The notes beneath the pieces were generated by a model. That model made no database searches. It was not told the DNA's origin and saw only the letters and a program-made list of their open reading frames with translations. The translations under genes were made by a program, and so were the position numbers. From the NCBI GenBank assembly GCA_900318355.1, contig ONKE01000045.1:1-40668 (forward strand): DNA of 40,668 nucleotides, written 5' to 3'. The DNA is from an uncultured Bacteroidales bacterium (GTDB lineage Bacteria; Bacteroidota; Bacteroidia; Bacteroidales; UBA932). Positions 31,049-40,440 of the stretch are shown in pieces. The first letter of the stretch is position 1, and each line of letters begins with the position of its first letter.

Positions 31049-31837
31049 CTACTGCTTGATGAATATCTTGGCCGTAAAATCGTCCATGCAGAACCACAGC
31101 GGGATGTCGGTACGGTTCGAGGTCAGCGTGAAGTCGAGATAGTCCATGTCCCGGATCTCAGTAAGGGGGAACTCCGTCCATTTGTCGAGGATGGAGAGTC
31201 CCTTTTCCGTGTAGTTTGCAAGATAGATTTCCGCCGTGCCCGACACGGCGTCGCCGACTATTGCCGTAGCCGTCAGCTTGAGATAGTCGCCCTGGGCAAA
31301 TGGCGGGATGTCTTCGGTGCCGTTTACGATTATGTTGGCCACCAGATTGGTGTTCTGGACGAAACATCCGGCAGGAGTGCAGGAGCCGATTCCGCCGGCG
31401 AGGTAGACCAGGTCGTGCTCCGGATTCTTGGAGTCGTCCGGATTCTGATAATAGACGGCAAATACCTTGGAACGGCCATTTCCGGTTGAGTCGGCGACGC
31501 AGAACGGCGAGCGGGTGACGTGGCCCGGCTTTACGATGGTGTCGCACTTCATGCTGACGCTGAACCCTCCGGTGAAGGTGCCGTATTGGCGGATATCTTC
31601 CGAAGCGTCTTCCCCGTCAACGGCGGCGTCGTAGTCCCTGTGGCGGTTGTTGTAGCCGATGTAGCCACGGTCGACAAAAGGGAGAATGTTGTAGACGCTG
31701 TCCCTCTCGATAATATACAGGCGGTCCAGGGCATCGAGATCGCTGCCGATATAATCGCTCATTTCATACGACCCCTTCAAACAGCCGGTAAGGACCGTCA
31801 GAAGCACCAATGCTGAAAAAACATGCTTTCGTGTCAT
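31049..31837 (-). CDS. DUF4465-type lipoprotein coupled to dapF
   Basis: From the ATG at 31837 the product is 262 residues, with a lipobox ending LTGC. An upstream GTG at 31879 would run through the dapF end and is rejected. The rest resembles DUF4465: TFTGGFSVSMKCDTI, VFAVYYQN, then GCFVQNTNLVANIIVNG, QGDYLKLTATAIV, GTAEIYLANYTEKG and the closing LDFTLTSNRTD plus WFCMDDF. DUF4465 proteins are secreted or surface beta-sandwiches with unknown or glycan-related roles. Its start codon overlaps the dapF stop by 4 bases, an unexpected partner for a cytoplasmic biosynthetic enzyme. The stop abuts the gmhA stop on the opposite strand. No terminator is seen between, so convergent transcripts may overlap. 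Confidence 0.75.
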   Translation of the reverse strand: MTRKHVFSALVLLTVLTGCLKGSYEMSDYIGSDLDALDRLYIIERDSVYNILPFVDRGYIGYNNRHRDYDAAVDGEDASEDIRQYGTFTGGFSVSMKCDTIVKPGHVTRSPFCVADSTGNGRSKVFAVYYQNPDDSKNPEHDLVYLAGGIGSCTPAGCFVQNTNLVANIIVNGTEDIPPFAQGDYLKLTATAIVGDAVSGTAEIYLANYTEKGLSILDKWTEFPLTEIRDMDYLDFTLTSNRTDIPLWFCMDDFTAKIFIKQ

Positions 31838-32652
31838 CCCTGTTTTTTTTGCAAATATACAAAATGCGCCGGAAAACACGACACATCCCCGACATATGAA
31901 ACGGGGCCGGTGAGGCGGATGGAGGTGAAGCGGTCAGGGCGGGCGGAGGATTCGACCGTCAGGGTGGAAAAGCCGCTGCGGACCTGGATGCAGTCGGCAT
32001 CCAGGAGGCCTTCAAGGCGGGCGGCGAGAGCCGTGGCGACGATACCGGTACCGCAGGCAAGCGTCTCGGCCTCAACTCCTTTCTCATAGGTCCGAACGCG
32101 CAGGCCGCCGTCGCACCGGCAAGCCAGGTTGACGTTGACCCCGACAGGAGCATAACGTTCGGAGTAACGGACGGGACGGGCAATGCCGGGAAGGTCGGGA
32201 ACGTCGATATCGTCGCAGAAGCGGACATAGTGGCGCGTCCCGGTGTCGAGGAACCACTGCGACGGGCCCTCGCGATGGAACTGCGTCACGTCGCGCATGC
32301 TGATACGGACGACCGAGTCGCGGCCGTCGCGGCTTAGGATCGCAGCCTCATGAATCCCGTCGGGAGCCTCGAAACGGCAGGTGTCACCGATAATTCCAAG
32401 GTCGGAAGCGAACACCGCGATGCAGCGCCCGCCGTTGCCGCACATCATGCCGCCGGAGCCGTCAGGATTGTAAAATTCCATGCGAAAATCGGCCGCGTCC
32501 GAAGGTCGCAACACCATCAGGCCGTCGGAACCGAATCCGCAGTGACGGTCGCACAGGCGGCGGACATCATCCTCAGTCAGGCATAAACTGCCGTCCCGGC
32601 CGTCTGCGAGCAGGAAATCGTTGCCGGCACCGTGGTATTTTCGAAGTATCAT
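31834..32652 (-). CDS. dapF: Diaminopimelate epimerase
   Basis: The 272-residue protein converts LL-DAP to meso-DAP, the direct precursor of lysine and of peptidoglycan. N-terminal KYHGAGNDFLLADG and the paired catalytic cysteines are intact: Cys71 in MMCGNGGRC and Cys200 in ETLACGTGIVATA. The length is normal. It follows the aminotransferase gene with a 4-base overlap (32649-32652) and overlaps the DUF4465 lipoprotein gene by 4 bases, so it is the last biosynthetic gene of the dapB-dapF operon. Confidence 0.95.
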   Translation of the reverse strand: MILRKYHGAGNDFLLADGRDGSLCLTEDDVRRLCDRHCGFGSDGLMVLRPSDAADFRMEFYNPDGSGGMMCGNGGRCIAVFASDLGIIGDTCRFEAPDGIHEAAILSRDGRDSVVRISMRDVTQFHREGPSQWFLDTGTRHYVRFCDDIDVPDLPGIARPVRYSERYAPVGVNVNLACRCDGGLRVRTYEKGVEAETLACGTGIVATALAARLEGLLDADCIQVRSGFSTLTVESSARPDRFTSIRLTGPVSYVGDVSCFPAHFVYLQKKQG

Positions 32653-33818
32653 AGCGCTTTGCGGATTAGGTCGGAAAGAAGGGCAAGGCCTTCGCGGATA
32701 CGGTCTTCGCTCATGAAGGAGAAGTTGAGCCGCATGGTGTTGGCCCCGGCGCCGAAGAAAGAACCGGCGACGTATGCCACGCCTGCCGAGAGAGCCGTCT
32801 CATAGAACGCGACGCTGTCGAATCCTTCCGGCAGGGTGAGGAAAAGGAACAGGCCGCCTTCCGGACGGGTCCAGCTCACGCCCTCGGGCATCAGCCGCTC
32901 CAGCAGGGAGAGCATGAGATCGCGTTTGGCGCGGTAGAGGCTGCGGGTGTGGACAAGATTGGCGTCCAGGGCACCGCTGCCCATGAATTCGGCGGCAAGA
33001 TATTGGTCGAATACGGGAGGACAGAGGTCGAGCGACTGCTTGCAGACGTAAATCGCATCCAGGAGGGTTTCAGGGCCGAAAATCCATCCCAGCCGCAGTC
33101 CGGGGGCGAATATCTTGGAGAAAGACCCCAAATGGAGCACTCGCTCGGGGGCGAGGGAATAAAGCGACGGCACGTCTTCGCCCTCGTAGCGAAGCTCGCG
33201 GTAGGGGCTGTCTTCCACGACGAGAAGGTCTTCCTTGCGGGCGGTTTCGACGATTTCCCGACGCATGGGAAGGGATATGGTCTCGCCCGAAGGATTTTGG
33301 AAATCGGGAATCAAATAAATGAATGCCACCTTCTTACCTTCAGCCCTGACCTCGCGGGCCGCACGCTCGATGTCGGCGGCGAATGAATCCGAAAGCGGGA
33401 AGGCACGGACCTCGGCACGATAGGACCTGAAGGATTGCAGCGCACCGAGATAGGTCGGGCAGACCGTCAGGATCACGTCGCCCGGGTCGGCCAATATGCG
33501 GGTGCAGACGTCGATGCCCTGCTGGGACGAAGTGGTTATCTGGATATTGCCCAGGGGCACCCCGTAACGGTCGGAAAGCACCTGCCGGAGCTCGGGAACG
33601 CCCTGCGTGCCACCGTACTGAAGGGCCTTGGAGCCATATTTCGACGCAACCTTCCCGGCAAGGGCGCCCATCTGCGAAAGCGGAAAGGTGTCAGCCGAAG
33701 GATAGCCTCCCGCGAAGGAATAGATTCTCGATAGGTCCACCCGCTTGAAAATCTCGCGGACGGGGCTGCGGAAAAATGACGGAACGTCTTCCGAAAAATG
33801 CTGACTGTAATCAACCAT
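32649..33818 (-). CDS. LysN/2-aminoadipate-type aminotransferase in the DapC position
   Basis: The 389-residue fold-type I PLP enzyme shows the 2-aminoadipate/MocR-like pattern. It has FAGGYPSADTFPLS near residue 35-48, ALQYGGTQGVPELRQ (65-79), PDFQNPSG (Asn175), VEDSPYREL (Asp203, Tyr206) and the Schiff-base Lys235 in LGSFSKIFAPGLRLGW. There is no N-terminal GntR domain, so it is an enzyme and not a MocR regulator. The usual DapC in the succinylase route is ArgD-like, whereas LL-DAP aminotransferase (DapL) is a different clade. By position between dapD and dapF this gene most likely supplies the N-succinyl-L,L-DAP aminotransferase step; 2-aminoadipate enzymes act on similar side chains. It overlaps dapD by 1 base (TAATG) and dapF by 4. 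Confidence 0.85.
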   Translation of the reverse strand: MVDYSQHFSEDVPSFFRSPVREIFKRVDLSRIYSFAGGYPSADTFPLSQMGALAGKVASKYGSKALQYGGTQGVPELRQVLSDRYGVPLGNIQITTSSQQGIDVCTRILADPGDVILTVCPTYLGALQSFRSYRAEVRAFPLSDSFAADIERAAREVRAEGKKVAFIYLIPDFQNPSGETISLPMRREIVETARKEDLLVVEDSPYRELRYEGEDVPSLYSLAPERVLHLGSFSKIFAPGLRLGWIFGPETLLDAIYVCKQSLDLCPPVFDQYLAAEFMGSGALDANLVHTRSLYRAKRDLMLSLLERLMPEGVSWTRPEGGLFLFLTLPEGFDSVAFYETALSAGVAYVAGSFFGAGANTMRLNFSFMSEDRIREGLALLSDLIRKAL

Positions 33819-34591
33819 TATCTCAGGGCTTCTTCGAGCGAGACCGAGGCGTCGGTGCGCTCGTCACGATACTTGATAATCACCGGAGTATAGACGTGGA
33901 TGCCGTCGGAGGCGGCCTGACCCTTCGTCACCGGACGGCTGCCGCCAACGACAACCGCTCCGGCCGGGATGACCAGCTGGCCAGACGCATCGGGACGGAT
34001 GTAGCAACCATTGACGGCATCGTAGACCGGGGTGCCGCGGGTAATCATTACGCCTGAGGCGATTACGGCGCGCTCGCGGACGAGAGTGCCTTCGTAGACA
34101 CCGCATCCGCCACCGAGGAAAACGTCGTCTTCGATGATGACCGGAAGGGCGCCGGCAGGCTCGAGAACTCCGCCCACCTGGCAGTTGGCGGCCACATGGA
34201 CGCGCTTGCCGATCTGGGCGCAGGAACCGACGACGGCGTGGGAGTCGATCATCGTCCCTTCGTCGACATAGGCGCCGACATTGATGAATGCCGGAGGCAT
34301 GATGATAACTCCCGGGGCGACGAAAGCGCCGCGCCTGACCGAAGTTCCTCCGGGGACGATGCGCAGGTTGTCTTCGAGGGAGAACCGCCGCATGGGAATG
34401 GTGTCCTTGTCGAAGAAGGAGAAGCCTCCCGTGGACATATCGATCCGCTGGCCGATACGGAAACCGCTCAGGATGACTTCTTTAACCCAGCTGTTGACTT
34501 TCCATTCGCCCTCTACGCGCTCGGCTACGCGCACCGAGCCGTTTTCCAGGGCCTCTATGGTATCGAGAAACTTTTTTCTTTCCTGGTCCAT
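33818..34591 (-). CDS. dapD: Tetrahydrodipicolinate N-succinyltransferase
   Basis: The 257-residue protein is a left-handed beta-helix transferase. N-terminal MDQERKKFLDTIEALENG leads to the hexapeptide-repeat region at about 95-215 (VAPGVIIMPPAFINVGAYV, DEGTMIDSHAVVGSCAQIG, VHVAANCQVGGVLEP). The C-terminal part contains VVVGGSRPV. It transfers succinyl from succinyl-CoA to tetrahydrodipicolinate. Its presence defines the succinylase route here rather than the DapL shortcut used by many Bacteroidota. It starts 5 bases after dapA's stop and overlaps the aminotransferase start by one base. Confidence 0.95.
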   Translation of the reverse strand: MDQERKKFLDTIEALENGSVRVAERVEGEWKVNSWVKEVILSGFRIGQRIDMSTGGFSFFDKDTIPMRRFSLEDNLRIVPGGTSVRRGAFVAPGVIIMPPAFINVGAYVDEGTMIDSHAVVGSCAQIGKRVHVAANCQVGGVLEPAGALPVIIEDDVFLGGGCGVYEGTLVRERAVIASGVMITRGTPVYDAVNGCYIRPDASGQLVIPAGAVVVGGSRPVTKGQAASDGIHVYTPVIIKYRDERTDASVSLEEALR

Positions 34592-34596
34592 CTTGG

Positions 34597-35478
34597 CTAT
34601 AACATTTCCAATTCTTTAAGACACTCTTTCATCCTAAGGGCCGTCTCCGGGGTGGCAGGAGTGAGCGGCAGGCGCATTTCCGGGCTGCAAAGGCCGAGCA
34701 GCGACAAACCGGCCTTGACCGGGATGGGGTTGCTCTCGACAAAGCATGCGTCGCACAGCGGCAGCAGGGAGTCGCGGATAGCTTCAGCATCCCCGCGCCG
34801 GCCTTCACGCAGCGCCGCGTTCATCGAAGCCATCGTAGCAGGGACCAGATTGGAGACCACGCTGATTACGCCCTGACCGCCGGCTTCCATCACATCCAGC
34901 GCCTCGTCGTCGTTGCCGCTGAGGACGCTGAACCCTTCCGGACGGCCTCGAAGGATGGCCTCGACCTGAGGCTTGTTGCCGGAAGCTTCCTTTACGGCGA
35001 CGATGTTGGGCACGTCATGGGCCAGGCGAAGGCAAGTCTCCGCAGAGAGATTAGCCCCGGTGCGACCGGGAACATTGTAGAGCACTATCGCCTTGTCGGT
35101 CGACTCCGCGACCGCACGGAAATAGCGGTACATACCCTCCTGGGTGGGTTTATTGTAGTAGGGCACCACGATAAGGAACGCATCGGGGCCGCAGGGCTCC
35201 AGAAGCTTCATGGTGCGGATAGTGTGGCGGAGCGAATTGGTGCCGGCGCCTGCGACGACCGGACGCCCTCCCGCAAGGGAACGGGTCAGAGCCAGCAGAC
35301 GGACTTTTTCGTCGTCTTCCAGGCAAGGGGTTTCGGCCGTCGAACCGAGCGGCACGAGGAAATCCACGCCTGATTCTATTTGGCGGCGGACCATGGCCTC
35401 GAAGGCCTCATAGTCGACCGCATCGTCCTTGAACGGAGTCACGAGTGCCGTTCCCACTCCTTGAAGGAAAAGGCTCAT
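34597..35478 (-). CDS. dapA: 4-Hydroxy-tetrahydrodipicolinate synthase
   Basis: The 293-residue TIM-barrel aldolase condenses pyruvate with aspartate semialdehyde. GTALVTPF near the N-terminus, LVPLGSTAETPCL (41-53, Thr47), VVPYYNKPTQEG (Tyr108), IVLYNVPGRTGANL (Tyr134, Arg139) and the Schiff-base Lys163 in AVKEASG are all present. Length is typical. The first 4 bases overlap the end of dapB (ATGA). It precedes dapD by 5 bases. Confidence 0.95.
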   Translation of the reverse strand: MSLFLQGVGTALVTPFKDDAVDYEAFEAMVRRQIESGVDFLVPLGSTAETPCLEDDEKVRLLALTRSLAGGRPVVAGAGTNSLRHTIRTMKLLEPCGPDAFLIVVPYYNKPTQEGMYRYFRAVAESTDKAIVLYNVPGRTGANLSAETCLRLAHDVPNIVAVKEASGNKPQVEAILRGRPEGFSVLSGNDDEALDVMEAGGQGVISVVSNLVPATMASMNAALREGRRGDAEAIRDSLLPLCDACFVESNPIPVKAGLSLLGLCSPEMRLPLTPATPETALRMKECLKELEML

Positions 35479-36146
35479 TGCAGGAAAAGGTCTTTGAATT
35501 CATGTACGCCGGTAAGGCCCTCGGTCATAAGCGCCGCGGTAACGGCCCCGTCGGCCAGTCCTTCGCGGGAAAATGCCTCATGCTCAAGGGTTATCCTGTC
35601 GCAGGGGCCTTCGAAACCGACCGTATGTATGCCAGGGACTTCCCCGACGCGGACCGAAGCGATATTGACCGCCGGGGCGGAGATGTATTTTTCCACTTCG
35701 CGGGCAAGGGTAAGGGCCGTGCCGCTGGGGGCGTCAAGCTTGTGGCAATGGTGCTTCTCGACTATGTAGGGGGCATATCCGCCGGCCTTCGACAAGAGCT
35801 TTGCGACTTGCTCAACCGCGGCGGAAAGGACCGTCACGCCAACCGAGAAATTGGAGGCCCAGATAAGCGGGGTGCCGGCCTTGAGGAAACACTCAAACAC
35901 TTGGTCCTTAATGTCGTACCAGCCCGTCGTGCCCACCACTACAGCCTTGAAATTGGCTGCGAGGACTGGATAATTCGCACGGAACGCGGCCGGAGTCGTG
36001 AAGTCGATGCACACGGACTCGCGGGCCACGGCCGGGTCGAAGGATGCGATGTCTTCGCTCCACCCGGCGCAGGGAATGCCGCGCGCGGAGAGGGCCTTTT
36101 CGACCATGCGGCCCATCTTGCCATATCCGGAAATAACTGCTTGCAT
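35475..36146 (-). CDS. dapB: 4-Hydroxy-tetrahydrodipicolinate reductase (short form)
   Basis: The 223-residue enzyme reduces the DapA product with NAD(P)H. N-terminal GYGKMGR (7-13) is the nucleotide-binding loop, IDFTTP (47-52) and VVGTTGW (70-76) are family motifs, and EKHHCHKLDAPSGTA (130-144) holds the catalytic pair His132 and Lys136. It is shorter than the about 270 residues of the E. coli enzyme, mostly in the N-terminal half. All catalytic residues are kept. A good promoter lies just upstream, so dapB leads the operon dapB-dapA-dapD-aminotransferase-dapF-DUF4465. Confidence 0.93.
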   Translation of the reverse strand: MQAVISGYGKMGRMVEKALSARGIPCAGWSEDIASFDPAVARESVCIDFTTPAAFRANYPVLAANFKAVVVGTTGWYDIKDQVFECFLKAGTPLIWASNFSVGVTVLSAAVEQVAKLLSKAGGYAPYIVEKHHCHKLDAPSGTALTLAREVEKYISAPAVNIASVRVGEVPGIHTVGFEGPCDRITLEHEAFSREGLADGAVTAALMTEGLTGVHEFKDLFLQ

Positions 36147-36211: not shown

Positions 36212-38410
36212 TTAGCGACTGCCGAAGAGACGTGCGTGGAGGCGGCGGACCACATCCTGCGCAGCGTCCCGGGGGACGAGAATGCTGAGGCTCAAAGGGC
36301 CCTCGGAGACAATCGGGGCCTCGGCCTGCATGGCGCCGCGGACCTGTGAATCGGCCGGTACGCCCTTGCCGACGACGGAGACGAGCGACTGCCCCTCAAG
36401 CGGACTGTCGATGCCGGAGAAACCGACTTCCAGCAGGTCCTGACCGGTCATGAGGGCGATTGACTTTGGGCCTTCGGGGACGGAAGAACCGCCGATGATG
36501 GAGCCGGGAGCCTCGGGATGGCGCGTGTCCCTGACCCTGATCGGAATGTTGCGGCTGCGGGCCGGGCCGACGGTGTCGGGGTGGAGAACCCTGGCGCCGA
36601 GACCTGCCATGGCGGCGGCCTCGTCATAGGTCAGGCTGTCGATGCGGATTGAGTCCGATACGACCCGGGGGTCGGCCGAACGGATGCCGTCGACGTCGGT
36701 CCAGATCTCCACTGCGCTTGCTCCCAGGGCCATGCTGAAGAGCGCGGCGGAATAGTCGGAGCCTTCGAAGCCGAGGATGGTTGTCGCACCGTCCTTATCG
36801 GAGGCGATAAATCCCTGGGTGACTGTTATTTCAGACACGCGCATGTTCTGGATGCGCACGGTCGTGGCCGGGAGGTCGACGGTGGCGCCAAGGTAGTTGC
36901 TGTCGGTTTCGACAAGGAGCCGGGCGTCTTCCCACTTTGCGGGGAGGCCGGCCTCGCGCATGGACGCGGCGACAAGTACCGACGACATCAGTTCGCCGTA
37001 AGACAGGATCGCTGCGCGGTCGCCGGGAGTAAGGCCTTGTTTGACACACTTTTCGACCCTCGCGGAGAGTTCGCCGAGAAGGTCGCGGATACGGCCGGAA
37101 GCCTCGTCATAATCTTCTCCGGAGAGGAGGGCCGAGGCCGTATCGAGATGTCTAAGGCGAAGAGATTCAAGTATTTCAGCTGCAGTGGCTGCGTCTCCAG
37201 CGGCTGCGGCATCGGCCAGGGCCACAAGGGAACGCGTAACGCGGGCCATGGCGGAAACGACCACCACGGGCTTTTCGCTCAGCCTCGTCCTCACTATTTC
37301 GCGGACGCGGCCTATCGCGGCGGCATCCTGGACCGAAGTCCCTCCGAATTTCATCACGACGCTGCGATGGCGGGCGCAGAGCGAATGGTAGATGCGGACA
37401 TATTGCCGCGAAGCCTCATCCAATTGGCTGCCAAGCACGTATTCCCTGTCGGTGTGGGCCACGAGGATGGAGCCCGGGCCGCAAAGGGCCCTGCGCCGGA
37501 AGCCGGGAAGCTGCGGGGCGTCGCTGCCGAATGCAACGGTGGTGAGCCGCTCGCCGGGGGCCGTCCAGTAGTGCATGGGCGTGTCGCCGCCATAGGCCGT
37601 AATGGTATCTTCCGGCCCGAGAAGACGCGAAAGGACCCCGGCCACGATGCCGTCGGTGGCGAAAGTGGTACGGAAATATATCCTGAAGCGGACTTCGGGG
37701 CTGAGGATGTTCTGGGGGTTGTCACTGAGGAGCTTGCCGATGTTCCATGTGGTCAGGCCGAGCTCCGGGTCGACCGGGAAATCGTAGCCGCGCAGGGCCT
37801 GGACGAAGGAGACGAAACGCTCCACGGCGCTCTCCCCTTCCGACGGATAGCCCGAATGGCACGGACGGCCGCCAAGGACTATTTCGAAGGATTTGGTGCC
37901 TTTGCTGGCGGACACCATGGCCCCGCCCGTGGGCTCTCCGACCACTACGGCGTCGCCTCCGCCGCAGTCGCGGTTGTAGGCTTTGGCGCCGAACGAGCCC
38001 GTTTCCTCGCCTGCGAGCAGAAGGAGCGCAAAGTCGGTGCGGCCCGCCGCTTCCAGCTCAAGGCATGCCTGATACATGGCGTAGCACTGGCCCTTGGCGT
38101 CGCATGTGCCCCTTCCGGTGAAGAGGATGTCGTCGGCCGCGGCCACGCTGCCGTCGGGCAGGATTTCTCCCGCCTTTATCTCGCGCATTGCCGGCGGGAT
38201 ATACGGAGGAACCGTGTCCAGATGGGTGCAGAAGAACACCTTGGGATCGCCCCACGATATTCTCAGGTTGAGGGTGCCGTCCCCGACTTCGAAGGTTTCC
38301 ACCTTCCGTCCAGGGCCGCTGAACCGCTTGGCAAGAATGAGGGCGTAATCCCGCTCCCGTGAGGAAGTGGAATCAGTGGAAAGCATGGACAGGAACAGGC
38401 CGGCGTCCAT
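36212..38410 (-). CDS. DapE-type M20 deacylase fused to aspartate kinase
   Basis: This 732-residue protein joins two enzymes of the DAP pathway. Residues 1-345 are an M20 metallopeptidase with the full dinuclear zinc set: His63 and Asp65 (CTHLD), Asp104 (GTCDAKGQ), Glu135/Glu136 (AGEETG), Glu159 (VGEPTG) and His319 (VAHTD). Succinyl-DAP desuccinylase is the natural role. After a linker of only a few residues, the aspartate kinase begins at about 351 with VVMKFGGTSVQD; GFEGSDYSAAL (547-557) and WTDVDGIRSADPR (570-582) are also typical. The regulatory tail is short. Residues 649-666 (KSIALMTGQDLLEVGFSG) start the first ACT domain but run almost straight into SLVSVVG (675-681) of the next, so about 60 residues of ACT1 are missing. 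One frame covers both halves with no frameshift sign. The start overlaps the LolA-like stop by one base. Confidence 0.9.
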   Translation of the reverse strand: MDAGLFLSMLSTDSTSSRERDYALILAKRFSGPGRKVETFEVGDGTLNLRISWGDPKVFFCTHLDTVPPYIPPAMREIKAGEILPDGSVAAADDILFTGRGTCDAKGQCYAMYQACLELEAAGRTDFALLLLAGEETGSFGAKAYNRDCGGGDAVVVGEPTGGAMVSASKGTKSFEIVLGGRPCHSGYPSEGESAVERFVSFVQALRGYDFPVDPELGLTTWNIGKLLSDNPQNILSPEVRFRIYFRTTFATDGIVAGVLSRLLGPEDTITAYGGDTPMHYWTAPGERLTTVAFGSDAPQLPGFRRRALCGPGSILVAHTDREYVLGSQLDEASRQYVRIYHSLCARHRSVVMKFGGTSVQDAAAIGRVREIVRTRLSEKPVVVVSAMARVTRSLVALADAAAAGDAATAAEILESLRLRHLDTASALLSGEDYDEASGRIRDLLGELSARVEKCVKQGLTPGDRAAILSYGELMSSVLVAASMREAGLPAKWEDARLLVETDSNYLGATVDLPATTVRIQNMRVSEITVTQGFIASDKDGATTILGFEGSDYSAALFSMALGASAVEIWTDVDGIRSADPRVVSDSIRIDSLTYDEAAAMAGLGARVLHPDTVGPARSRNIPIRVRDTRHPEAPGSIIGGSSVPEGPKSIALMTGQDLLEVGFSGIDSPLEGQSLVSVVGKGVPADSQVRGAMQAEAPIVSEGPLSLSILVPRDAAQDVVRRLHARLFGSR

Positions 38411-39033
38411 TATTTTGCGGGAATCTTGAAGACTGCCGGATCGATGGACGCATTGCGGCTGAAATCACTCATCTGGTAGATGTCGATGATGCCGCCGAAT
38501 TCCTCGGTCTCCATCCTCACCATGAGGCAGTCGGATTTGCGGTAGGTCAGGTAGATGTGGGAATAGCCCTTGGTGACGTGCTTGCGGGCGGTCAGGAGCA
38601 CGACGTAGCCGTCTTTGGTGTCCTTGACGGCAATGTCGGCATCGCTCTCCGCGGCCACCTTGCGGGGCTGGCCGGTGATGCAGTAGAGGAGCGTGTTGCG
38701 GAGGCTGCGCATCAGCGGGGCCTTTTCGGTGTCGAAGGTCATGGGCTTGCCGAAACGGTTCATGTGGTAGGTCTTGCCGTCGATGACCACCAGGTCGGTC
38801 GCGGGCTTGGAAAAGCGCATGGCCATGCGGTCGGGTCCCTGGAAATAGACGGTGCCGGCGCAGTCGAACTTGCGTCCTGTGGCCGTGAGAATCCTGTTTT
38901 CAGTGAAATTGCACTGAACGGACTTCATTGAGGCGTTGGCTTTTTCGATCTTGTCGAGAATCGCCGCATCCTGCCCGAAGGCGCATATCGCCGCGGCAAG
39001 GGATGCAATGAGTGTTATTATTTTTTTCATCAT
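38410..39033 (-). CDS. LolA-like outer-membrane lipoprotein carrier protein
   Basis: From MMKK at 39033 (or the next ATG at 39030) the product is about 207 residues with a cleavable signal peptide (IASLAAAICAFGQ). The body fits LolA: MKSVQCNFTENRIL, GTVYFQGPDRMAMRFSKP, LVVIDGKTYHMNRFGKP and the closing GGIIDIYQMSDFSRN with DPAVFKIPAK. LolA proteins carry lipoproteins through the periplasm or, in Bacteroidota variants, may serve other hydrophobic cargo. An extended start at 39075 is rejected because it precedes the signal peptide by a charged stretch and overlaps the promoter. The stop overlaps the start of dapE-lysC (TAATG), so the two are probably co-translated despite unrelated roles. Confidence 0.85.
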   Translation of the reverse strand: MMKKIITLIASLAAAICAFGQDAAILDKIEKANASMKSVQCNFTENRILTATGRKFDCAGTVYFQGPDRMAMRFSKPATDLVVIDGKTYHMNRFGKPMTFDTEKAPLMRSLRNTLLYCITGQPRKVAAESDADIAVKDTKDGYVVLLTARKHVTKGYSHIYLTYRKSDCLMVRMETEEFGGIIDIYQMSDFSRNASIDPAVFKIPAK

Positions 39034-39079
39034 TTTCCGTGTTTCGGGCCGGGAAAGCAACCAATTCCGTGCCAAGGGA

Positions 39080-39087
39080 CAAAGGTA
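39080..39087 (-). promoter_or_regulatory. -7 element of the lolA-dapE/lysC promoter
   Basis: Minus-strand TACCTTTG is an exact TAnnTTTG match about 50 bases before the LolA-like start. The -33 region falls inside the 3' end of the acyltransferase gene; no clear TTTG is seen there. Confidence 0.5.
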
Positions 39088-39095
39088 AGCAATTT

Positions 39096-40427
39096 TTACA
39101 ACTTCCCCACCATGGCGTCGAGTTCCTTACGCATCCGCCGGACTTCTTCGGTATTGCCCAGATGGTCGGCGAGATGGAAGCAGATGCGGTCCTGGACCAG
39201 CCCCAGCACCGCGCACCAGTACCATTCGAAAAGGATCAGCAGCGGGAACGAAGCCACCCACGCCGCGGCGATGAGGAAACTGCCGGTCAGCGGCCATGCG
39301 GCGGCAAAGGTCAGCACCCCGGCCAAAGGAAGGAGCACCAGGGAGTTAAGCGCTATGAGGAAAGTCCCGGGGAACATCCGGCCGCGGGCACGGTCGGAAA
39401 AATGATTCGGAATGAGCCACGACGGCAGGGACGGCCACATGCAAAACAGCGCCACCGGCAGGGTGACGATGAGCCCCAACGACAGGAGGATGGTGCGCCA
39501 TATGCCCGGAGGGCGGTCGAAAAGGCGGTCGGGAACATTCATCTGCCGCTCGGCATCCAGGATGCGGCGGGCCAGGTTGCGGATCCCGAAAGAAGTGTCG
39601 GTCTCTTCCAGGCGCCGGACCAGTTCCCTGTCGGCATCGAGCTTTTCTGGCAGACGGCGCGGGTTCTTTCCGAGCCTTTCGGCAAAATGGCGGCCGTAGA
39701 CGTTTTTGCGGATAAACTCCGTTTCGGCGTAGCGGTCCTGGCAGGTGACGTTGAGCATCATGGCCTCAACCCGGGCGCGGATTATGGCGTTGACTTCCTT
39801 CTTGACGTCGCCGGGGTGTTCGCGGTAACGGTCGTAATACGGTGCCAGCGACAGGGGCTCGCCATAGCGGACCAGCCTCTCGTGGCGCATCCCGCCGAAC
39901 TCGGAATAATGGTTGCAGACGGGCTGGACGAGGATATCCTTCTTGAATCCGGCGGCTTCCGCGGCACCGAAGGCTATGCGAAGGTAGCCGGTGGAAAAAT
40001 CGCCCAGCCAGTGGCCTTCCTGGTGCTTTCCTTCGGGAAACAGCGCTACGGTCCCGCCATCGGCAAGCCTCTGCGCGGCCTCGCCGAAGGAGGCGTAGTT
40101 GCCCTGCATCGCCGCCGCGCCGTCTATTTTGAGGCGGAAAGCCGGCAGGATGCCTATCCAGCGCAGGAACGCGGACAACGCCCGATTGAGGGAGAATACA
40201 TCACCGCGCGCCAGGAACGTCGGCTTGCGGTCACGCAGCGTCGTGACCAGGCACAGGGCGTCGTTGAGGGCCTGCTGGTGGTTGGAAACCATCAGCACGG
40301 GCGTGCCGCTCCGTGGCACGTTGTCCTTGCCCTCGACCCATGTACGCCGGTAATATATCCGGTCCGTCCAGAACGCGATCCACGCCCGGGCCGCGCGGAA
40401 CAGCAGCGGAAATCTGTCGTTGCTCAT
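39096..40427 (-). CDS. PlsC-like lysophospholipid acyltransferase with C-terminal membrane segments
   Basis: From the ATG at 40427 the product is 443 residues; a GTG at 40433 overlaps the promoter element. The acyltransferase domain (about 35-220) contains VLMVSNHQQALNDALC, with His and Asp of the catalytic motif five residues apart, a spacing used in a Bacteroidota branch in place of HX4D. It also has GTVALFPEGKHQEG (glycerol-phosphate binding motif) and PVCNHYSEF. C-terminal to it, about residues 305-405 hold two or three long hydrophobic segments, so the protein is a membrane enzyme. It likely acylates glycerol phosphate or lysophosphatidate. Its family members often pass as 1-acyl-sn-glycerol-3-phosphate acyltransferase; exact acceptor is not known. 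Confidence 0.85.
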   Translation of the reverse strand: MSNDRFPLLFRAARAWIAFWTDRIYYRRTWVEGKDNVPRSGTPVLMVSNHQQALNDALCLVTTLRDRKPTFLARGDVFSLNRALSAFLRWIGILPAFRLKIDGAAAMQGNYASFGEAAQRLADGGTVALFPEGKHQEGHWLGDFSTGYLRIAFGAAEAAGFKKDILVQPVCNHYSEFGGMRHERLVRYGEPLSLAPYYDRYREHPGDVKKEVNAIIRARVEAMMLNVTCQDRYAETEFIRKNVYGRHFAERLGKNPRRLPEKLDADRELVRRLEETDTSFGIRNLARRILDAERQMNVPDRLFDRPPGIWRTILLSLGLIVTLPVALFCMWPSLPSWLIPNHFSDRARGRMFPGTFLIALNSLVLLPLAGVLTFAAAWPLTGSFLIAAAWVASFPLLILFEWYWCAVLGLVQDRICFHLADHLGNTEEVRRMRKELDAMVGKL

Positions 40428-40432
40428 AACCA

Positions 40433-40440
40433 CAAATATA
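40433..40440 (-). promoter_or_regulatory. -7 element of the acyltransferase gene
   Basis: Minus-strand TATATTTG fully matches TAnnTTTG and ends only 6 bases before the ATG at 40427. Transcription would start almost at the start codon, giving a leaderless or near-leaderless mRNA. No good -33 TTTG is seen at 20 bases, so confidence is moderate. Confidence 0.45.

Follow-up and report, generated by a model that had tools for sequence, protein, structure and literature searches.

Can a single polypeptide supply both the first and a late enzyme of diaminopimelate (DAP) synthesis and, if so, what sort of aspartate kinase (AK) does it contain? This question is raised by a gene from an uncultured Bacteroidales bacterium, carried on the 40,668-nucleotide stretch of DNA that was analysed (hereafter, the window). 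A sequence-only reading of this DNA had described one frame that joins a DapE-type deacylase to an aspartate kinase. We find that the fusion is real. The more interesting result, in our view, is a change of the aspartate site that extends through a whole clade of related kinases.

The dapE~AK gene and its two halves

As had been claimed, the gene forms one uninterrupted frame of 732 amino acids, with the correction that it lies on the minus strand (38410→36212), which the sequence-only reading had left unstated. Each of the remaining five frames of 36212-38410 contains between 4 and 21 stops. An overlapping open frame of 441 amino acids on the plus strand (37037-38362) was taken for a shadow of the GC-rich dapE~AK gene. 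The Pfam matches on the 732-residue chain are Peptidase_M20 (residues 62-193), M20_dimer (168-248) and AA_kinase (351-628), all above their gathering scores, and no LysA or homoserine dehydrogenase domain is found among them. The gene occurs in single copy in the draft genome to which the window belongs (2.3 Mb, 77 contigs, 91.5% complete). The features are as follows.

36212..38410, minus strand: dapE~AK fusion gene, 732 codons plus stop (open reading frame, Pfam, NCBIfam)
37379..38410, minus strand: DapE-type M20 metallo-desuccinylase half, residues 1-344 (Pfam M20 and M20_dimer)
37361..37378, minus strand: linker of about six residues, 345-350
36491..37360, minus strand: aspartate kinase catalytic domain, residues 351-640 (the kinase half is 351-732)
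36755..36772, minus strand: GFEGSD motif in place of GRGGSD, residues 547-552 (alignment to E. coli AKIII)
37232..37234, minus strand: R393, at the position of N46 of E. coli AKIII (row comparison)
36215..36448, minus strand: C-terminal remnant with the ACT2 part kept and ACT1 missing, residues 655-732
38410..39075, minus strand: LolA-like gene, directly upstream of dapE~AK (Pfam, NCBIfam)
35475..36146, minus strand: dapB (NCBIfam 120.1 bits, just below the 122-bit cut-off; Pfam DapB_N and DapB_C above theirs)
34597..35478, minus strand: dapA (Pfam, NCBIfam)
33818..34591, minus strand: dapD, N-succinyltransferase (above the NF008808 cut-off)
32649..33818, minus strand: PLP aminotransferase (none of 25 NCBIfam models among the matches listed reaches its cut-off)
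31834..32652, minus strand: dapF (Pfam, NCBIfam)

The minus-strand run therefore reads lolA-like, dapE~AK, dapB, dapA, dapD, PLP aminotransferase and dapF. The aminotransferase is probably the N-succinyl-DAP aminotransferase, a role assigned from the place of its gene only. In six other loci (L049, L166 and L173-L176) the aminotransferase has no match, and dapF follows dapD directly or nearly directly. Upstream of dapE~AK, the LolA-like gene is accompanied by an acyltransferase gene (38410-40433, minus strand); the nearest NCBIfam model for the LolA-like protein is the flexirubin-type LolA2, with 72 bits against a cut-off of 125.

The M20 half contains both the catalytic and the dimerisation domain, and residues H63, D104, E135, E136, E159 and H319, which we take to be the M20 metal and catalytic positions, are invariant across 46 aligned rows. 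The description of a complete M20 metallo-deacylase with its zinc ligands is thus borne out. Which deacylase it is rests on other grounds. The best DapE model in NCBIfam gives 85.3 bits against a cut-off of 369, well short of an equivalog-level score, and the best ArgE model gives 82.6 against 297.7. The sole other M20 match to this protein in the window genome is encoded between argG- and argH-type genes, and it also slightly favours the DapE model (121) over ArgE (117); for neither of the two M20 proteins, therefore, do the NCBIfam scores tell DapE and ArgE apart. Because the other gene sits between argG and argH, the window copy is likely DapE, an assignment made from operon context and left undecided against ArgE by the sequence alone. 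With the M20 half so named, the claim that DapE and aspartate kinase share one chain holds.

Aspartate kinases are allosteric enzymes that have been studied extensively, and they are targeted in engineering for lysine production. The window protein scores 256.1 bits with the aspartate kinase model TIGR00657 (curated cut-off, 208.7). It retains Lys8, Glu119, Ser201, Asp202 and Asp222 (E. coli AKIII numbering), which we take to be the test residues of an aspartate kinase; Ser201 and Asp202 belong to its group-defining motif. That motif, GRGGSD in AKIII, is GFEGSD in the window, with F548 for R198 and E549 for G199. In the portion of PMC5481828 available, aspartate is described as held in AKIII by two salt bridges, one from E119 to its α-amino group and one from R198 to its α-carboxylate, and as being contacted directly by T45. 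The window thus lacks the arginine that binds the α-carboxylate. Our search for literature on R198 mutants found no paper.

Many relatives likewise have GFEGSD in their dapE-linked kinase, and we compared 43 rows that carry it with 57 that do not, F198, E199, S201 and D202 being fixed in the former by definition of the group. Position 198 is Arg in 57 of the 57 rows without GFEGSD; the window and the rest of its clade have Phe there. Position 46 is Arg (40) or Lys (3) in the 43 GFEGSD rows versus Asp (49) or Asn (8) in the others. Arg is likewise found at position 257 in all 43 rows versus 4 of 57 (K257R), and at position 227 in 41 versus 6 of 57. Seven further positions (K8, S39, T45, E119, T221, D222 and R232) are identical in all 43. 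The GFEGSD rows form one clade in the tree (100/97); canonical Bacteroidales LysC falls in its sister group. Within the clade, the fused pair described below has support of 100/100 and L167 lies on a long branch. R198 may have been replaced in its role by the Arg or Lys at position 46, beside T45. The earlier description of a complete kinase domain is hence correct as to length; it had overlooked that the aspartate-binding arginine is replaced and that, because ACT1 is missing, the regulatory part is incomplete. A natural clade without the arginine present in every other row offers a direct test of what an aspartate site needs.

Among 300 sampled genomes of the genus, 37 carry GFEGSD inside an AK, a label given manually where the site falls within the AK match. 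The counts given below for other AKs, for ACT-less AKs and for their companions come from 133 genomes, among the matches listed: 57 with a Ser-coding GFEGSD-pattern site, from 90 pattern-positive of the 300, and 76 further ones chosen for high completeness.

We propose, at a probability of roughly two in three, that the gene encodes a bifunctional DapE–aspartate kinase for DAP that arose in three steps, each occurring once in the tree. A dapE-linked LysC would first have altered its aspartate site (R198F, G199E, N46R/K, K257R), then lost the lysine-binding ACT1 that sits between the ACT2 parts, and finally been fused to dapE by loss of the dapE stop and the kinase start. The C-terminal half would phosphorylate aspartate and the N-terminal half would take succinate off N-succinyl-LL-DAP, with the intermediate steps performed by Asd, encoded elsewhere in the genome, and then by products of the run to which the fusion gene belongs, namely DapB, DapA, DapD and the aminotransferase. 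Both halves are predicted to be active, with R46 or a neighbour assuming the α-carboxylate contact; with ACT1 lost, imported lysine would no longer inhibit the making of DAP and so of the cell wall, and fusion would hold the first and the late enzyme equimolar. The kinase could also be made separately from an internal ATG (MKFGG). If so constituted, the first and second-last enzymes of the DAP route are united in one protein in two related uncultured bacteria.

Rarity and origin of the fusion

The second of these bacteria is represented by another uncultured draft genome (70% complete), whose fused protein is 75% identical to that of the window and has a linker of equal length. Both halves lie on one strand in 66 of 113 loci, and are fused in three: the window, L005 and L034. 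The last two have an identical frame and count as one relative, so the fused loci represent two species, or 2 of the 37 GFEGSD-bearing genomes. In the other 63 loci dapE and the kinase are separate; the kinase match starts at most 150 bases past the dapE match in 51 and lies further away or upstream in 12. Besides the window, no chain matching both halves was found in 393 genomes of the order (E up to 1e-60) or, among the matches listed, in 395 genomes of the phylum (E up to 1e-50); because of these cut-offs, a very distant fusion could escape detection. A widespread fusion, which the sequence-only reading had named among the findings that would refute it, was rejected on these searches, and with 3 fused loci of 66 the fusion is not common in the lineage.

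The separation of the two genes in 63 of 66 loci, together with the lack of a further match in the sampled genomes, points to one recent fusion event within an old gene order. L097 (Gemmatimonadota), L081 (Ignavibacteriota) and L075 share the order dapE-AK-dapB-dapA-dapD, with about 1 kb separating dapE from AK in the first two. Since the order predates the fusion, the earlier suggestion that joining the genes might simply fix operon order is too weak. Linkage of dapE and the kinase is not always tight, as about 1.9 kb lies between dapE and an ACT1-less GFEGSD kinase in L076:8551-10497.

How the genes became joined can be read from the junction. Only one stop separates dapE and kinase in 7 of the 15 same-frame loci inspected, and in L008, L049, L060 and L080 the stop of dapE and the ATG of the kinase share bases. 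The start ATG of the unfused relatives has become AGC (Ser350) in the window and TCC in the fused relative. Between the two fused species, dS is about 1.1, and dN/dS (Nei-Gojobori) rises from 0.12 in DapE to 0.22 in the kinase domain and 0.29 in the C-terminal part; both halves are under purifying selection.

These data bear on a neutral origin, in which a stop and a start were lost between co-translated neighbours and the single chain brought no gain. Such an origin is a serious contender, to which we give somewhat less than an even chance, and it is compatible with the bifunctional enzyme proposed above. The overlapping stops and starts of the four loci make it easy to envisage, and it accords with a fusion confined to two species and with a variable linker region, in which 6 of 12 residues are identical. 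Against it, the fusion has persisted over a dS of about 1.1 with the linker free of stops, and in neither fused species does the start codon of the unfused relatives survive.

Loss of ACT1 and the shape of the pathway

Lysine binds ACT1 in AKIII, according to the available part of PMC3195717. The window protein and its relatives lack ACT1 and retain the ACT2 strands and the C-terminal end, so that the arrangement of a lysine-regulated LysC, with ACT1 between the ACT2 parts, is absent from the window and its subclade. The ACT1-less rows, nine in number, form one clade (97/93) that includes the fused pair, and ACT1 was therefore lost before the fusion, in the subclade that includes the window. 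A full-length GFEGSD kinase elsewhere (L007:2565-3917, plus strand) gives a weak ACT match of 20 bits, below the cut-off, which suggests that ACT decay may predate the loss of ACT1.

We found no match to homoserine dehydrogenase and none to LysA in the window genome, a 91.5% complete draft in which these absences, and that of a second AK, could be gaps. With neither found, the aspartate branch of this organism may yield DAP alone. The proposal that co-location could balance flux into DAP is compatible with, and sharpened by, the two missing matches. Among the 20 GFEGSD-bearing genomes in which we identified no other kinase-competent AK, 10 have homoserine dehydrogenase and 15 have a LysA match (14 above the cut-off). 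The ACT1-less members of the 20 are the window genome, its fused relative and G115, all without LysA and homoserine dehydrogenase; the probability that all three would be without LysA is 0.009 if they are independent, which kin are not. Yet G152 and G216, also without LysA and homoserine dehydrogenase, have a full-length kinase, and G016 is ACT1-less but has LysA, with a second full-length LysC directly before lysA. ACT1 loss is thus not a simple consequence of lost lysine synthesis, and in G016 the kinase of the dap operon and that of lysine may be separate. Other AKs are present in five of the eight ACT1-less genomes. The ACT1-less branch appears to have shed its lysine sensor and then fused, a single time, with an enzyme that acts late in the pathway. 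In a genome that may make DAP as its only product of this branch, this would show plainly how a branched pathway can become linear.

The only other TIGR00657 match in the window genome is a 424-amino-acid protein (L003:571-1845, plus strand, contig C75) that looks kinase-dead, having neither KFGGTS nor the Ser-Asp of GSD, and that has strong ACT matches. This pseudo-AK occurs in 57 of the 300 genus genomes (E <= 1e-60), and one reading is that it acts in trans as a regulatory subunit. Among the matches listed, it accompanies an ‘ACT-less’ AK (model end <430 and frame >=640 aa) in 24 of 61 genomes and is present in 8 of the 72 that have no such AK (Fisher p 2e-4, kinship ignored). Eight of the ‘ACT-less’ rows reach model positions 390-417 and may retain some ACT; without them in this group the counts are 23 of 53 versus 9 of 80, again among the matches listed and with kinship ignored. 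Within the GFEGSD-bearing genomes the pseudo-AK accompanies 4 of 8 ACT1-less kinases versus 1 of 29 full-length ones. The protein could then belong to a split aspartokinase, with a DAP-dedicated chain whose α-carboxylate arginine has moved from 198 to about 46, with Glu199, and with control, if any, exerted through the pseudo-AK. We regard this arrangement as unlikely; 37 of the 61 genomes with an ACT-less AK are without a pseudo-AK among the matches listed, which speaks against a general need for it.

Probable activity of the GFEGSD kinase and its relation to known fusions

Loss of an arginine held in every row without GFEGSD could mean loss of aspartate kinase activity. The genomes bear on this point. 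Of the 37 GFEGSD-bearing genomes, 20 showed no second AK that looks kinase-competent among the matches listed, 18 of them clearly so. Six gave no further match to the AK family up to an E of 1e-10 (G020, G107, G117, G152, G168 and G216); in three the sole other AK relative is the kinase-dead-looking type described above (G000, G014 and G115); nine have besides only a ThrA-like frame that matches from model position 170-185 onward; and two (G200 and G320), the less clear cases, have short AK pieces that may be cut by contig ends. Completeness exceeds 90% in 11 of the 20, and reaches 99% in G107, 98% in G066 and G114, and 97% in G152. A match to asd, with a query that is Asd according to NCBIfam, is present in 19 of the 20, is missing in G236 and is weaker in G142 (49%) and G200 (46%). 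Aspartyl phosphate is the established entry to this branch, and the GFEGSD enzyme therefore most likely makes it. These counts suggest that the protein probably still acts as an aspartate kinase, with its substrate site rebuilt, and that it appears to be the sole AK in many species.

Two ThrA-like proteins were noted in this survey. That of G066 (L177:1360-3477, plus strand), the one inspected among the nine, has lost most of the kinase N-lobe, with KFGAGL in place of KFGGTS, and keeps ACT and homoserine dehydrogenase. In G003, a compact ThrA of about 690 amino acids (L114:1608-3695, plus strand) joins a canonical GRGGSD kinase to homoserine dehydrogenase with no Pfam ACT match, directly upstream of asd and dapE.

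Might the kinase half instead have abandoned aspartate, phosphorylating or only binding another amino acid while aspartyl phosphate comes from another AK? Phe throughout the clade at the α-carboxylate-binding position, with Glu adjoining, would suit such a change, and 17 of the 37 genomes do have another kinase-competent AK. We nevertheless consider it distinctly improbable, given the 20 genomes that have none, the near-constant presence of asd in them, the conservation of the α-amino-binding E119 in all 43 rows, and the dapB, dapA and dapD genes that adjoin the kinase in the window and in 8 of 8 loci inspected from those 20 genomes (L034, L166-L168 and L173-L176). A new substrate was rejected as first choice, being weakened by the genomes without another AK.

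Even less probable is a kinase half left with weak or no catalysis, the fusion being a side effect of its decay in organisms that meet their needs by import. The kinase evolves faster than DapE, homoserine dehydrogenase and LysA were not found in the window draft genome, and kinase-dead-looking AK relatives do occur within the genus; but the kinase is under purifying selection at a dS of about 1.1, its seven other conserved positions are unchanged in 43 of 43 rows, and the dapB-dapA-dapD-dapF run has been retained beside it. That an assembly or sequencing artefact joined two genes has a negligible chance and was rejected: both fusions come from metagenome drafts, but the frame is open near residue 350, where a stop or frameshift had been named as a danger, and the second species shows the identical junction and linker length in a different record.

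The bifunctional DapE–aspartate kinase can thus be set beside known systems. The M20 half has in common with DapE and ArgE deacylases (PDB 7uoi, 2f7v) the metal-site residues and the catalytic and dimerisation domains, and differs from them in additionally carrying a kinase. The kinase domain can be aligned throughout with E. coli AKIII (PDB 2j0w), sharing K8, S39, T45, E119, S201, D202 and D222; it differs by R198F, G199E, N46R and K257R, by the missing ACT1 and by DapE at the N terminus. Cryptobacteroides-like, Gemmatimonadota and Ignavibacteriota loci have the gene order dapE-lysC-dapB-dapA-dapD of the window, whereas their dapE and lysC are two genes, with a kinase of GRGGSD type outside the GFEGSD clade.

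That the sequence-only reading knew of no described DapE-LysC fusion agrees with the literature searched, so far as its text was available, in which we found no paper on a DapE-aspartokinase fusion; the fusions mentioned in the accessible part of PMC5814848 are other peptidoglycan ones only. The nearest engineered case in the sources available is the tethering of neighbouring pairs of E. coli lysine enzymes by cohesin-dockerin, which gave higher lysine in at least four pairs, the set as described there including no lysC-dapE pair (PMC12206723). Among natural proteins, ThrA and MetL (NCBIfam PRK09436, PRK09466) are also bifunctional chains with an aspartate kinase, but in them the kinase is N-terminal and its partner is homoserine dehydrogenase, whereas the window protein has an M20 partner and no homoserine dehydrogenase was found in its genome. 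LysAC (PRK08961, AK/DAP decarboxylase) likewise combines AK with an enzyme that acts later in the lysine/DAP pathway; in the window the partner is DapE rather than LysA and the kinase is C-terminal, and the PRK08961 score of 207/802 bits is below the cut-off. Judged from these sequence comparisons, the fusion is rare and probably functional, and it belongs with the aspartate kinase fusions, a known kind.
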